Assembly: GCA_903877385.1 (NCBI GenBank)
Contig: CAIRDP010000020.1
Coordinates: 124,001 to 188,000 of the forward strand
Source: an uncultured Bacteroidales bacterium
GTDB lineage: Bacteria; Bacteroidota; Bacteroidia; Bacteroidales; FEN-979
Direction of reading: 5' to 3'
DNA: 64,000 nucleotides
Each line of letters begins with the position of its first letter. The first letter of the stretch is position 1. The notes beneath the pieces are model-generated. The model was not told the origin of the DNA. It made no database searches and saw only the letters and a program-made list of their open reading frames with translations. The position numbers were made by a program, and so were the translations under genes. Of this stretch, positions 4,440-60,483 are shown piece after piece.

Positions 4440-6317
4440 TTATTGGATTGTATCTCCCCTCAGGGTTCTGTATCGCTTTCTTGCCTCCGGCACGAACAGG
4501 CTGCCGGGATAAGTATTCAGAAGCTCCTGGTACAAAGCCATGGCCCCCTGTTTATCGGCCAGCTGGGTTTCATGGATCAGAGCTCTGTTCATAATAGCCT
4601 CATCGGTGATGATATCCACGGCCCGGTTCCTGCTCACTATGGCATACATCGAATCGGCCATGGCATACTGGCCCGTCTTTTCATAGATCTCCCCTTTGCG
4701 GTAGACCACGTTGTCGAGAATGGGATGCTGGGCAAAGCGCATGGGGATTGAATCAAGGGTTTGCAAAGCCAGGTCCTCCCTGTTCCTGAAATCGGCGAGC
4801 TCGGCCCTGGAATAGATCCCGAGCGCAACGGTATTGCTGTCGGTATCGTATTTATTGCTGATGAGCATCGAGAGTTGCATGGCGTCGTTGGCAATAAATT
4901 TCGAAGTTGCCGCCTTGAGGATGTCAAGCTGGGCTTTGGCCCAGTCGAATTCGCCCATGTAGTACGAAAGACGGGCATTCCTGAACTTGGCTTCCTGCCC
5001 TATGGCATCGTTTTTAAAATCCCCGTAGATCTGCTGGTACAACACCGTAGCCGTCCACAGATCCCCCCTGAAAAGATGGATATCGGCCAGTTCCATTTTA
5101 ACCGAAGCCCTTTCTTTTGCATTCAGCCCGTTCCAGGCCATAACGAGGTCGAGCAGGTCAAGGGCCGCATCGGCATTTCCAAGGTAAAAAGCATCCAGGT
5201 GCGCAAGGTCCAGCACCAGCCGCAAGGCATCCGGATTATTATCCCAGCGCCTGAGTTCGGCAAGCATGGCTTTCTGCAATTCCCCGTAATCGGCTGCCCG
5301 GGAACCGGGCTTTTCGTTCAGCCTGAGGTACCTGGTGTGAAGCTGTTCCCTGCGGGCTGCCTCGTACCATGCATGCGAAGAACCTTTCGAAACCACGTAT
5401 TTATAGGCCTGCTCCGCCACCTCGTAGTTCCCGTTCGAAACAGCCAGGCTGGCAAGGTCCATGATGCGGCTGCCGTCCTCCCTGAGGCGTCGGTCCAGGG
5501 CTTTGGCCTGGACCAGGGCAAGTTCAAAATCCTTTTCCTGTATCGAATACCACCATAAAAGCTCCGAATAATAAGCCTGGTCGGGCTGCTTCTGTATCCT
5601 TTCCAGCAGTATGCTCCTGAACGCGGTATGTTTCGAATTATCGTCATCCTGCGCCAGCAGCGACTGCAGATGGTCCTTTACAGTGGCCTCATAATTCATG
5701 TCAAGGGTGAGGAAGTTGAGATATTCGCCTATGGCCGCGTCGAAATTCCCCATCCTTTCGTATGCCGATGCCAGTTCAAACCCTATGGTATTCATTTCGG
5801 GCAGGAGTTCCCTGCCTTTTTTATACGTGCTCACCACATACTCCATTTCACCCTTCGAATAAAAGGCGTTGGCAAGCTCGTTAAGCTGGGTCGCATCGGC
5901 CGGCAAACGCTTCAAAGCATCATCGTAAATCTTCTTTGATTTTGCAATATTTCCCTCCCTGAAATACACGTAACCAAGATCGACCTGGTATTTGAGGGCA
6001 TTCTGGTCGATTTTCTGTTGACTGCGGATGAGTTTTTTCGCTTCCTCATAATCCAGGGTCTCGACAAGGCAGAACAGATAGTAGGTATAATTATAATATG
6101 AAGGATTTTTCGGGTAGATCCTCGAATACAGCTCCCCGGCCTTCTCGAAATTCCTGGCCTGGAAGAACTGCATCGCCATCTGGTCCTCGTTATTCGCGGT
6201 AACCGCATCCTGCTGGAACGGAAGCACATTGCTCCCCGCCCGATGGTCCTGGGCCCTTGAAATCAGCGGAGATTGCAGTAAGAGGGAAATAAAAATAAAG
6301 ATGAATAATCGAATCAC
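4440..6317 (-). CDS. TPR-repeat secreted protein; start reassigned to GTG at 6317
   Basis: TPR-rich ORF; in-frame GTG gives signal peptide VIRLFIFIFISLLLQSPLISRAQ. Upstream ORF extension (to 6473) is made of repeat DNA. Confidence 0.8.
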   Translation of the reverse strand: MIRLFIFIFISLLLQSPLISRAQDHRAGSNVLPFQQDAVTANNEDQMAMQFFQARNFEKAGELYSRIYPKNPSYYNYTYYLFCLVETLDYEEAKKLIRSQQKIDQNALKYQVDLGYVYFREGNIAKSKKIYDDALKRLPADATQLNELANAFYSKGEMEYVVSTYKKGRELLPEMNTIGFELASAYERMGNFDAAIGEYLNFLTLDMNYEATVKDHLQSLLAQDDDNSKHTAFRSILLERIQKQPDQAYYSELLWWYSIQEKDFELALVQAKALDRRLREDGSRIMDLASLAVSNGNYEVAEQAYKYVVSKGSSHAWYEAARREQLHTRYLRLNEKPGSRAADYGELQKAMLAELRRWDNNPDALRLVLDLAHLDAFYLGNADAALDLLDLVMAWNGLNAKERASVKMELADIHLFRGDLWTATVLYQQIYGDFKNDAIGQEAKFRNARLSYYMGEFDWAKAQLDILKAATSKFIANDAMQLSMLISNKYDTDSNTVALGIYSRAELADFRNREDLALQTLDSIPMRFAQHPILDNVVYRKGEIYEKTGQYAMADSMYAIVSRNRAVDIITDEAIMNRALIHETQLADKQGAMALYQELLNTYPGSLFVPEARKRYRTLRGDTIQ

Positions 6318-6390
6318 TCCCGGGAAATTCTTCGCCCCTCTGGGGCAAAACCCCGGTCCAGGGTTCTGCCCTGGGGTTAATACCGATTTA
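6312..6390 (-). repeat. Dispersed 79-bp double-hairpin element, copy A
   Basis: Gapless alignment to 59192-59270 (61/79 by hand); two tandem 6-bp-stem hairpins. Confidence 0.85.
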
Positions 6391-6432
6391 TTAGTCGAAT
6401 ACCCGGATAAAGGAATTATGAACCGCTTAACA

Positions 6433-6474
6433 ATTCGACATTCAAAATTCGTTGATCGATATTCGATATTCATC
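6433..6474. repeat. Heptanucleotide repeat (6 units, ATTCnnn)
   Basis: ATTCGAC ATTCAAA ATTCGTT GATCGAT ATTCGAT ATTCATC. Confidence 0.93.
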
Positions 6475-6476
6475 TT

Positions 6477-7670
6477 TTACCCATTAAGTAAGCGCAACGC
6501 CATCCACGCCATCAGCCCCATTCCCGTTTTGATGGCTGATTCATCGACATCAAACCCTGCGGTATGAAGATTCGGGCCGATGCCAATGGCAGGATCGGCA
6601 ATGCCCAGCCCGTAAAAACACGAAGGCGCCAGCTGGGCGAAATAAGAGAAATCCTCGGCCCCCATCTTCTGTTCCATGGGTTTAACGTTGTTTTCGCCCA
6701 GATAATCTGCTGCAAGCACCGAAAGCTTTTGGGTAAGTTCCTCGTTGTTGAACAGGTAGGGATATCCCCTGTCGATAGTGATGTCGCAGCTCCCCCCCAT
6801 GGCCCCGGCCGTTCCTCCCGCGATGGTCCTGATGAGTTCGTGCACCCTGGCCCTCCATTCTTCGTCGAATGTCCTCACCGTGCCTTCAAGCCTTACCGTT
6901 TCGGGGATCACATTCGTCCTCCCCTCCCCCAGGAACTTTCCAACAGTGACCACCGTTGAAACAAGGGGATTCGCATTCCTGCTTACGATCTGCTGAAGCG
7001 CTACCACGATATGCGAAGCTATCAGTATGGGGTCGACGGTGGTCTGGGGCATGGCTCCGTGACCGCCTTTTCCTTTAACTGTAATGAAGAATTCATCCGT
7101 TGAAGCCATGAACATGCCCGGCCTGAACCCTGCCTCCCCCGCGCTGAGGAAGGGGAATACATGCTGACCTATCACGAAATCGGGTTTCGGATTTTCCATG
7201 GCGCCCTCCTCTATCATCCTGATGGCTCCACCGGGGTAGGTCTCCTCAGAAGGCTGGAAAAAGAGTTTGATGGTTCCCCTGAAACTGTCCTTAAGTCCGT
7301 TCAGTATCTTCGCCGCCCCCAGCAGGCAGGCTATATGCACATCATGTCCGCAGGCATGCATCACCCCCGGGTTTTCCGAACGGTAGGCTACCTCGTTGGT
7401 TTCCTTGATGGGAAGGGCGTCCGTATCGGCCCTGAGCGCAAGACATGCGGCTTGCGGCTCGCGGCCCTCGATGATCCCGACGATCCCATATCCGCCAACA
7501 TAATCAGTAAAATGAATACCGTTTTCCCTGAGCTTTGACCCGATCAACTCCATGGTGTTTTTTTCCTGCTTCGACAGCTCCGGGTGCTGGTGAATATGAC
7601 GGCGGATCCCTTTCATCTCGGGATGGTATTCTTCGGCCTTAAGGCGGATGAGGTTTGCGATATCAGCCAT
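6477..7670 (-). CDS. M20-family amidohydrolase/aminoacylase-type peptidase
   Basis: RRHIHQHPELSKQE...RADTDALPI...MHACGHDVHIACLLGAAKIL...GKGGHGAMPQ...KMGAEDFSYF. Confidence 0.95.
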   Translation of the reverse strand: MADIANLIRLKAEEYHPEMKGIRRHIHQHPELSKQEKNTMELIGSKLRENGIHFTDYVGGYGIVGIIEGREPQAACLALRADTDALPIKETNEVAYRSENPGVMHACGHDVHIACLLGAAKILNGLKDSFRGTIKLFFQPSEETYPGGAIRMIEEGAMENPKPDFVIGQHVFPFLSAGEAGFRPGMFMASTDEFFITVKGKGGHGAMPQTTVDPILIASHIVVALQQIVSRNANPLVSTVVTVGKFLGEGRTNVIPETVRLEGTVRTFDEEWRARVHELIRTIAGGTAGAMGGSCDITIDRGYPYLFNNEELTQKLSVLAADYLGENNVKPMEQKMGAEDFSYFAQLAPSCFYGLGIADPAIGIGPNLHTAGFDVDESAIKTGMGLMAWMALRLLNG

Positions 7671-57877: not shown

Positions 57878-59197
57878 TTAAATAGTAATTGGAATTCCTG
57901 AATAAAAATCAAGGATCTTCCGGCTGAAAATGAGTTTGTATTTTGACTGCAGAAGAGTGCCTTCGGCAATGATAAGATTCGTTTTCTGCACAAGAAAATC
58001 CACTGAGCTTATCAGTCCCTGCCTGAACTTTTCATCGGCTACAAGGTATGATTCATAGGCAGCATCATACTGCTCAAGTGATGATTCGTATTCCCTGCAG
58101 TAAGAAACCACATCCTGGGCTCCCTGTTCTATGGATTTCCTGAGCTGGTTCCTGATATTGGTTTCGTCGAGTTCGGCATTCGTGGTATTGAGCCGGGCAA
58201 TGCTTACGCTGGATTTCACCTTGTAGTTCTGGTATATGGGGATGTTGAGCGAGATCCCGACTGTAGGGCTGATCTGGTCATCGAAGGAAACCTGCTGCTG
58301 CCCTGAAGCGGCAAAATTCATTCCCAGGCCTGCGCTCAGTGATAATGAAGGATAATAATCGGCTTTGGCGATCTTCACATTCAGTTTGGCCGATTCCTTG
58401 TTGAAGGCAGCGCTTTTAACCTGGGGTTTGACGGTAAGGGCAATCTTGTATACCGAATCAGCTTTCGGATGAATGGAGAGCAAAGACCGTGGGTCGAGAA
58501 CCGGGTGATAAACCAGGAGGGAGGTATCGGCCGGGAGTTCCATAAGCTGGATAAGGGTGATGCGATCCATGGCCAGGCTGCTTTCGGAGGTAGCAAAGGT
58601 TTGTTTTTCGCTGGCCAGCTGTGATTTAACCTGCAGGTAATCTGACCTGGAGGATGCACCCAGGTTCAGCCGCTCGGATGATAACTCAAGTTGCTGTTCG
58701 GTCAGTTCGACCTGTTTGCGGCTGTTTCTCACCTGTTCTTCGGCGTAGAGAACCTGCAGGTATGCGTTAAGAATATTCAGGATTATTGATTCCCTGGTTG
58801 TTTCGGCGTCATATTTAGCAGCTTCGAGGCTTACTTTCGATTGTTTCACCTGTCCGTTGATCTTAAACCCGTTAAACAAAGTTAAATTTGAGTTTACCGA
58901 TATGTTTGTCCCTGCATAGCCAACCAGGTTACCGCTGGTAATGGTTACCTGCTGGTTGTTCCAGGCATAACTCTGGTTCACCCCTGCATTGAGCGAAGGG
59001 TACCTGGACGATTTCACCTGGCTTGCAGTGGCTTCGCTTATCCTGATGGTAACTCCTGCTTTTTTCACCTGGATATTGTTGCTCAGTGCATAGGCTATGC
59101 ATTTTTCGAGAGTCCAGGCTGAATCGGATACTACCTGTCCTGCCTCAGACTTGGCTCCATAAGACAGTAAAAGCGATACAATCAGTATTTTGATCAC
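57878..59197 (-). CDS. TolC-family outer-membrane efflux protein; start reassigned to GTG at 59197
   Basis: TolC-type helices (SAWTLEKCIAYALSNNIQVKKAGVT); in-frame GTG gives signal peptide VIKILIVSLLLSYGAKSEAG; upstream extension is repeat DNA. Confidence 0.88.
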   Translation of the reverse strand: MIKILIVSLLLSYGAKSEAGQVVSDSAWTLEKCIAYALSNNIQVKKAGVTIRISEATASQVKSSRYPSLNAGVNQSYAWNNQQVTITSGNLVGYAGTNISVNSNLTLFNGFKINGQVKQSKVSLEAAKYDAETTRESIILNILNAYLQVLYAEEQVRNSRKQVELTEQQLELSSERLNLGASSRSDYLQVKSQLASEKQTFATSESSLAMDRITLIQLMELPADTSLLVYHPVLDPRSLLSIHPKADSVYKIALTVKPQVKSAAFNKESAKLNVKIAKADYYPSLSLSAGLGMNFAASGQQQVSFDDQISPTVGISLNIPIYQNYKVKSSVSIARLNTTNAELDETNIRNQLRKSIEQGAQDVVSYCREYESSLEQYDAAYESYLVADEKFRQGLISSVDFLVQKTNLIIAEGTLLQSKYKLIFSRKILDFYSGIPITI

Positions 59198-59270
59198 TCC
59201 TGGTAAATTCCCCGTCCTCCCGGGGAGAAACCCGGGTCCGGGGTTCTGCCCCGGGCTCAATATCGGTTTA
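59192..59270 (-). repeat. Dispersed 79-bp double-hairpin element, copy B
   Basis: See copy A; the same position relative to a GTG start codon. Confidence 0.85.
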
Positions 59271-59307
59271 TTCCCTTCCGAAAAAGTCCTTACAGGTTTA
59301 CAAGGTT

Positions 59308-60375
59308 TCATGGCCTTGGAGCTATGGAGAATTTATGCGAGATCTTGAAGTTTTTTGACTGGGATTGGGAACCTGAATCCCGGGGAGGTTCGCCTCCGGG
59401 ACCACCGCCATGGCCGCCGCCTCCGGGACCGCCGCCCATACCGCCCTGTCCGCCTCCGGGTCCTCCTCCCATTCCTCCCTGTCCGCCTCCCGGGCTTCCA
59501 CCCTGACCTCCACCCTGAGCGCTGCCAATACCTCCACTCATACCGGCCTGTCCGCCTGTGCCTTCGATTTGTATTCCTCCGCTGCCCTCTGCGCCTCCTC
59601 CGCCTGGCCTGACGCCCTGGCCTTCCTGTGGCTTTCCGCTGACCGAGTTTTTAATGACAAAGCCAAGGGTAAGGTACTTAGCCGTCCTCAGATCTTCTTT
59701 GAAATAAGACAGGGGGATGGCGGTTTCAATTACGAGTGAACCTGTAGAATCGTAAGCCAGGGCTGTTTCAACACCCGGCAGAAGAGAAAGGGGGGAATAA
59801 GTTCCGTCGATCCCCTCGCAGAAACCCGAGAGACTGACATTTGCCTGGAACCTGCGGGCCCTTTGTCTTACAGTGCCTATGCCTTTGGGAGGGGCCTGGG
59901 GATTCTTTTTTTCCCGGACCTGTGCGTTCATGCTGCCCTGGTCCGGGCGATCGCCCGGACCGGCAGCAGGAGGAGCCCCATAGGGTCTTACTTCGCCAAA
60001 TGGAAACTTAACTAAACAGGATTCTTTTTTCTTGCCGTTGGCTTCAATAGTAAAGCTAAAGCCATCATGGAGTATACTCAACTGCTCGTCCGGGTCAAGG
60101 ACCTGTATGCAGAAATACAAACGGGATGAATCATTTGCTATGGCATAAAGCAGGTTTGCATCAGCATTATCATAGAACATCTTCGACGGCCATTCGCTCA
60201 AACTACCGTCGGCCCTGAACAATTCCTGGTAAAAACAAGGATAGGCCCCCTGGGATCTCTTCGTTTCCTGCGAACCCTTGCCGCCTGCAAAAACCCTGGG
60301 AAGACAACATCCGCAGACAATAAAAAAAGAAACCAGGGAAACGATGGCAATATCCCTGAAACAGTAAGCTTTCAT
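59308..60375 (-). CDS. Secreted Gly-rich protein with CBM9/DOMON-like N-terminal region
   Basis: Signal peptide; LFRADGSLSEWPSKMFYDNADANLLYAIANDSSRLYFCIQVLDP; Gly-rich C-terminal repeats GGGQGGMGGGPGG. Confidence 0.7.
   Translation of the reverse strand: MKAYCFRDIAIVSLVSFFIVCGCCLPRVFAGGKGSQETKRSQGAYPCFYQELFRADGSLSEWPSKMFYDNADANLLYAIANDSSRLYFCIQVLDPDEQLSILHDGFSFTIEANGKKKESCLVKFPFGEVRPYGAPPAAGPGDRPDQGSMNAQVREKKNPQAPPKGIGTVRQRARRFQANVSLSGFCEGIDGTYSPLSLLPGVETALAYDSTGSLVIETAIPLSYFKEDLRTAKYLTLGFVIKNSVSGKPQEGQGVRPGGGGAEGSGGIQIEGTGGQAGMSGGIGSAQGGGQGGSPGGGQGGMGGGPGGGQGGMGGGPGGGGHGGGPGGEPPRDSGSQSQSKNFKISHKFSIAPRP
59417..59482. repeat. Two 33-bp tandem repeats coding for 11-aa Gly-rich units
   Basis: CCGCCTCCGGGACCGCCGCCCATACCGCCCTGT / CCGCCTCCGGGTCCTCCTCCCATTCCTCCCTGT. 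Confidence 0.85.
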
Positions 60376-60483
60376 AATCCTGGTGTTTATCGGTTGGAAT
60401 AATTGAACCAAAACTACAGAGGACACAGGTCCCCGAAGAAATTAATAGGTGAATGCTGAAAATTTACCGGAGAACCGGAAGGA

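Follow-up and report, generated by a model that had tools for sequence, protein, structure and literature searches.

Several families of short palindromic repeats and several transposase groups resemble the system described here. REP/REPIN sequences, which go together with TnpAREP transposases (PMC3116915, PMC6006769), are likewise short extragenic palindromes that are non-autonomous, amplified by lineage and sometimes arranged in tandem, and a candidate single-copy Y1 partner is present here as well; however, our element is 84 bp long and carries two dissimilar hairpins in a fixed order. TnpA Y1 proteins of subclass 1.2 are low in copy number and, as described, generally lack IS ends or associated repeats (PMC6006769); their pairing with an element, as considered here, would be new and is hypothetical. 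Non-autonomous elements derived from IS200/IS605 share with our repeat the subterminal hairpins (here covarying), the lack of a target duplication, a Y1 transposase in the genome and perhaps the insertion beside a short fixed target, which here would be an ATTAAA-like hexamer deduced from few sites. Prokaryotic MITEs and the Rickettsia palindromic elements (PMC10969869) are also small palindromic insertions that can add codons, starts or stops to genes, whereas our element is almost wholly intergenic, shows no clear target duplication and, in the copy termed B below, changes a start region without interrupting coding sequence. CGTC-tagged palindromic repeats (PMC3733652) similarly occur in Bacteroidetes without an associated transposase, but they carry a CGTC end tag which our family does not have. 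In our assessment the family is new, while its kind, non-autonomous and hairpin-bearing mobile repeats, is known; its modular variant is unusual.

The window, a stretch of 64,000 nucleotides, contains two copies of the element, A and B, whose natural orientation corresponds to the minus strand (Table 1). An earlier note on this DNA had aligned positions 6312-6390 with 59192-59270 without gaps and counted 61 identities in 79 positions, which we obtained exactly as well. The repeat is real, and its length is slightly greater than the 79 bp claimed, namely 84 bp. The genes following the copies were also described correctly, as they encode TPR repeats (copy A) and a protein of the OEP/TolC family (copy B) according to Pfam. 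In a BLAST search of the genome to which the window belongs (G000; 4.3 Mb, 67 contigs), copy A recovered copy B (E=8e-13) as well as 13 or more others with E<1e-7, hence the repeat is not due to chance.

Table 1 Coordinates of the two element copies, the genes that follow them and the candidate Y1 protein.
Feature	Position	Strand	Basis
Copy A, 84 bp, AATAAATCGG...GTGATTCGA	6309..6392	-	98.6 bits, model R1, E=1e-19; limits from 74-copy profile
Copy A hairpin 1, CCAGGG-cagaa-CCCTGG	6358..6374	-	Fold; helix 1 covariation, 93 copies
Copy A hairpin 2 inner stem, GCCCC-aga-GGGGC	6334..6346	-	Fold; covariation 93 vs 37.6 shuffled
Copy A hairpin 2 including outer CCGGGG/CCCGGG	6320-6356	-	Fold
GTG within copy A right end, likely start of TPR protein	6315..6317	-	Inference: open frame, hydrophobic N-terminus
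Secreted TPR-repeat protein 3' of copy A	4440..6317	-	Pfam TPR; 70-76% orthologues, 7/7 congeners
Copy B, 84 bp, AATAAACCGA...GTGATCAAA	59189..59272	-	86.1 bits, model R1, E=1e-16
Copy B hairpin 1, CCGGGG-cagaa-CCCCGG	59238..59254	-	Fold; covariation
Copy B hairpin 2, TCCCCG-ggagga-CGGGGA	59209..59226	-	Fold
GTG within copy B right end, likely new start of TolC-family gene	59195..59197	-	G007 orthologue comparison
TolC/OEP-family outer membrane protein 3' of copy B	57878..59197	-	Pfam OEP 1.4e-58
Y1 (HUH) protein, single-copy, syntenic	L031:1422-1866	-	Motifs match subclass 1.2, 8/8 congeneric genomes

A covariance model (R1) built from 13 copies detected at least 50 copies in G000 at E≤1e-3, a number that rises to 66 when E≤1 is allowed. 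Relatives of a histidine kinase encoded in the window derive mostly from Bacteroidetes/Bacteroidales metagenome bins, which places the host in Bacteroidota. All seven congeners carry the element with 3-25 copies each, and two genomes of another genus of the same family contain 21 and 12 copies, while the remaining genera of the family have mostly none or few. Using a wider model in an order-wide sample, we found the element in 14 of 344 genomes, scattered over about ten families besides that of the host; these order-wide copy numbers are lower bounds because 13 candidates were scored per genome. The amplification is lineage-specific, and the nearest neighbour of a copy was located in the same genome in 49 of 94 cases compared to a shuffled mean of 16.5. 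Rfam gave no relevant match for the window and 14 element loci, and the head sequence of the element was not found in phage and plasmid records. As a separate observation, about 480 bp including an element copy are shared between L286 (G005:C228) and G000:C19:154422-154903 with 100% identical flanks. The two genomes otherwise differ by 15-25%, which indicates either a recent transfer or cross-binning.

The limits of the element, 5'-AATAAAYCGGTATTAA…ACCGGGAGWGATTAAA-3', were taken from a profile of 74 copies of the genus, in which base frequencies fall to background exactly beyond these two sequences. The ends are sharp, the flanks random and without any preferred sequence, and the 84 bp are non-coding, as a conserved frame is absent. 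Identity between left and right flanks showed no excess indicative of a target duplication at any word length from 3 to 12 bases; for hexamers it was 4.12 within a copy and 4.09 over all pairs, and the hexamers at the two ends of a copy were uncorrelated. Apparent duplications of 6-9 bp at single loci (A, L050, L058) fail as a property of the family. The two ends form imperfect inverted repeats in genus g1 (AATcA..GGTA / TAATCtCtCCCGGTA), which are absent in other lineages. These features bear on the idea that the element is a MITE derived from an extinct or, in these genomes, rare DDE-type insertion sequence, with the imperfect inverted ends as its terminal inverted repeats. A short, non-coding and dispersed element with such ends in the genus would be in line with this, but there is no target-duplication signal, and other lineages keep the head with a different right end and have lost the inverted repeat. 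We consider a DDE-type origin unlikely. A genome search with the right-end pattern returned mainly ends of 84-bp copies, and no autonomous copy was present among the extra matches inspected. In tandem dimers, one ATTAAA junction is common to both copies.

The hairpins were analysed for covariation over 93 distinct copies from across genomes, with CCAGGG/CCCTGG tested as hairpin 1 and GCCCC/GGGGC within CCCGG/CCGGG as hairpin 2. In both hairpins together 84% of cells pair, compared to at most 56% in slid controls. Changes on both sides occurred in 19 of 20 pairs, with 130 double-changed cells versus 51.5 after shuffling, and none of 500 shuffles reached any of the five measures; these counts lean toward the structure because the alignment was fitted to it, whereas the replacement of stems is visible in the sequences themselves. 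The inner stem of hairpin 2 was replaced as a block between lineages (GCCCC:GGGGC, GCAGC:GCTGC, GGGGC:GCCCC, GATGC:GCATC), and the outer CCCGG/CCGGG stem is not retained in the second genus. Of the two hairpins proposed in the earlier note, CCAGGG/CCCTGG (CCGGGG/CCCCGG in copy B) is kept by covariation. The other, CTGGGG-caaaa-CCCCGG, is not conserved: it is paired in 40% over the 93 copies, no better than slid controls, and the true second stem is GCCCC-aga-GGGGC (82% paired, 93 double changes compared to 37.6 shuffled). Taken singly, copy A folded significantly (z=-3.4) and copy B weakly (z=-1.1 to -1.6), and many copies have strongly decayed stems. In the stems of both hairpins, G-U cells (67) and A-C cells (70) were equally frequent. 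This is hardly the pattern of selection acting on a single RNA strand; such parity should arise when inserted copies decay on both strands, but not when an RNA made from one of them is maintained. The hairpin structure was probably selected in the mobile form of the element.

Based on our own hexamer-based gene caller, which is crude, 55 of 57 copies are intergenic, at a coding fraction of 0.92 (92% of the window). The neighbouring genes are divergent, convergent or co-directional with no clear preference, and copies are located before, after and between genes at all distances. Of the genome-wide properties that the earlier note had proposed to check, copy number and covariation were borne out, while a preference for gene starts was not. 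The same note had suggested either a REP/MITE-like element or a portable 5'UTR or regulatory RNA at the start of a secreted-protein gene, and only the first alternative was supported. As a cis-acting RNA controlling the downstream gene, the element would be expected to resemble what is seen at the window copies, which both immediately precede, in the sense direction, a gene for an exported protein, and copy A does have a stable RNA fold; one intercistronic copy, L050, is also common to three species. However, copies occur in every orientation and distance from genes, orthologues of both window genes do without the element upstream (the TPR gene in congeners, tolC in G007), and G-U cells are no commoner than A-C cells. 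A family-wide role of this kind is largely refuted and must be regarded as highly improbable.

At least eight copies have a neighbouring gene that reads toward the element and stops three bases inside it. The TTA at the right end provides a TAA stop on the opposite strand for such genes. This regular distance, together with the persistence of L050 in G000, G005 and G006, might suggest that copies, once inserted, are maintained because they act at gene ends as bidirectional terminators or stabilisers of mRNA. Yet the stop codons are explained by the TTA that the element carries at its end, the stems of many copies are strongly decayed and the mismatch pattern looks neutral, which leaves this explanation with very little probability.

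Sites without the element could be identified in relatives. The element is absent upstream of the TPR orthologue in all six congeners with an aligned upstream region (orthologues are present in seven of seven), and the upstream spacer of this gene differs in nearly every species. At tolC, the G007 orthologue is element-free and reads ATGAAACCTATGAAAATACTG with the site ATGAAAATACTG, whereas the window contains ATGAAACCT, 31 bp, the element and then AAAATACTG. The relative's start ATGAAA reads ATCAAA in the window, where the start is GTGATCAAAATACTG. The L058 site is uninterrupted in six congeners and reads GTTTAAAC (GTCTAGAC in one), with ambiguous exact boundaries, and at a second empty-site locus the relatives read TTTAAAGGG/ATTAAAGGG/ACTAAAGGG. 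Most congeners show at L114 a TAAAG hexamer followed by GGGC, and G005 reads TTCAGA in register at L039. A TTAAA-like hexamer is found at the junction of most resolvable empty sites, which are few. These few and diverged sites suggest insertion beside a pre-existing ATTAAA-like hexamer (ATTAAA, TTTAAA, ATGAAA). Copy L050, which lies between putative aldo/keto reductase and alcohol dehydrogenase genes judged from sequence context, is absent from G002 and others; its presence in three genomes indicates that copies can persist. Dispersed, intergenic and hairpin-forming, with sharp ends, lineage-specific amplification and empty sites in relatives, the element is very probably a mobile repeat.

Insertion beside ATTAAA-like hexamers would bring copies to gene starts, to stop codons and into the gaps between the genes of operons, and the position of A and B at gene starts may follow from insertion beside ATTAAA/ATGAAA-like hexamers. 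Repeats at gene starts may hence reflect such insertion sites and not regulation. With GTGATT at their right ends, both A and B provide a possible GTG start codon whose frame encodes a signal peptide; the L054 copy is similar. From this likely start, the TPR protein would begin with VIRLFIFIFISLLLQS... and have a signal peptide. For the TolC-family gene, the GTG in the end of copy B is likely the new start, judged from comparison with the G007 sequence; an alternative is the in-frame ATG at 59311. Further peculiarities were noted around these starts. In several congeners (L132, L133, L135, L136; window 6390-6480), the signal peptide of the TPR orthologue is partly encoded by short DNA repeats, e.g. 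(TTTCGCTAC)n, which differ by species, as if repeatedly supplying the 5' end, and a repeat-like stretch 5' of the TPR gene in L131/L134, ttcgcatcttcacaccaccgctggggtttgctgcgctacaccca, is common to G001 and G006 at the site of copy A. Copy B is adjoined by the 31-bp TTGTAAACCTGTAAGGACTTTTTCGGAAGGG (window 59273-59303), which is missing from the G007 orthologue and whose core turned up in no other loci than stretches overlapping the copy B site. Directly upstream of the TolC-family gene, an ORF on the minus strand (window 59308-60426) has a repetitive tail rich in glycine, proline and methionine and no match in Pfam or NCBIfam.

As a candidate mover, exactly one Y1_Tnp gene is present in each of eight congeneric genomes. 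These genes are 84-91% identical and colinear over 3.4 kb, which indicates that they are vertically inherited and not a mobile IS. The motifs of the protein (DHIH, YILSQERHH; Y---Q--HH in subclass notation), its size and its Bacteroidetes host match TnpA Y1 subclass 1.2 (PMC6006769). The protein has 148 aa, with its gene near C67:140770-141198. Its NCBIfam scores are just below the cut-off for IS200 (50.6 of 55 bits) and far below that for REP_Tyr_transpos (26 of 80). The view that the element is a classical REP, moved by a TnpAREP (RAYT) transposase, would agree with extragenic, palindromic, dispersed and doublet-like copies and with a single-copy, vertically inherited Y1 gene. Against this, the consensus has no GTAG/GTGG or CGTC foot and reads TTAACC/TGAACC before hairpin 1, the sole Y1_Tnp of G000 has a class-1 Y motif and a class-2 TnpAREP (Y..NP motif) is not present, and the REPtron arrangement, with element copies flanking the Y1 gene, is absent. 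We judge this alternative very unlikely.

No element copies were found near L031 or its relatives, and the surroundings of the examined Y1 genes contained no autonomous element bearing these ends, which sets our family apart from IS200/IS605-derived elements. A weak match (E=0.04) next to the IS200-type gene of L204 was attributed to chance because that IS has its own ends. In G019 four element copies are present and a Y1 gene was not detected; in G009 there are Y1 genes of the subclass-1.2 type and the element was not found. The orientation of copies relative to the replication strand, which lagging-strand HUH insertion should bias, showed a weak trend (18 of 46 with local skew, p=0.18; 18 of 52 with contig-average skew). 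We give an HUH mechanism about an even chance. According to the explanation toward which we lean slightly as a whole, the family would be short non-autonomous mobile DNA (REP/MITE-like) with hexamer-adjacent insertion and a Y1 protein acting in trans. A copy of about 84 bp, encoding nothing, would fold as two neighbouring hairpins. A Y1 (HUH) transposase may recognise these as single-stranded DNA, and the most plausible, hypothetical candidate is the genus's single syntenic protein of the subclass-1.2 type. The copy would insert between genes, apparently beside an ATTAAA-like hexamer, without target duplication. After insertion most copies would decay neutrally, and occasionally one would supply a neighbour with a start codon through the GTG of its right end, or with a stop codon through a TAA on the opposite strand.

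The most unusual feature of the family is that its head is fixed and its tail exchangeable. The two-hairpin head recurs in other lineages, where a different third hairpin follows it. In G008/G015, the head runs past AATTTACC into a long hairpin ATGCACCTCATCCCC…GGGGTTGAGGTGAAAAAATTAA, giving about 138 bp in total, and other families have CCTCACCCC…GGGGTGAGG, TCGTCCGCCGAAGC…GCGAAGGCGGATTAAA or CTTCGACTTCGTCGGG… after the same head. Most visible variant tails end in ATTAA or ATTAAA. It may be speculated that the orphan TnpA Y1 subclass 1.2 HUH proteins have their missing substrate in this family of modular elements moved in trans, a tentative reading that we regard as doubtful. The fixed two-hairpin head (GGTATGAACCCCAGGGCA-AGCCCTGGACCC..TTCCG-stem-CGGGGAATTTACC), the exchangeable third hairpin and the end (A)TTAA(A) would then be served, in many families of one order, by a nuclease that is domesticated and vertically inherited. 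A structured repeat family in genomes whose sole Y1 belongs to subclass 1.2 offers a concrete substrate to test, and the head with its exchangeable tail, if true, would mean that palindromic repeats can swap modules and yet keep one recognised structure. In L335-L351 and L355-L380, the conserved head is followed by lineage-specific long palindromes (CTC-rich, GCCGAAGC-type and TTCGACTTCGTCGGG-type), which may be separate repeat families.
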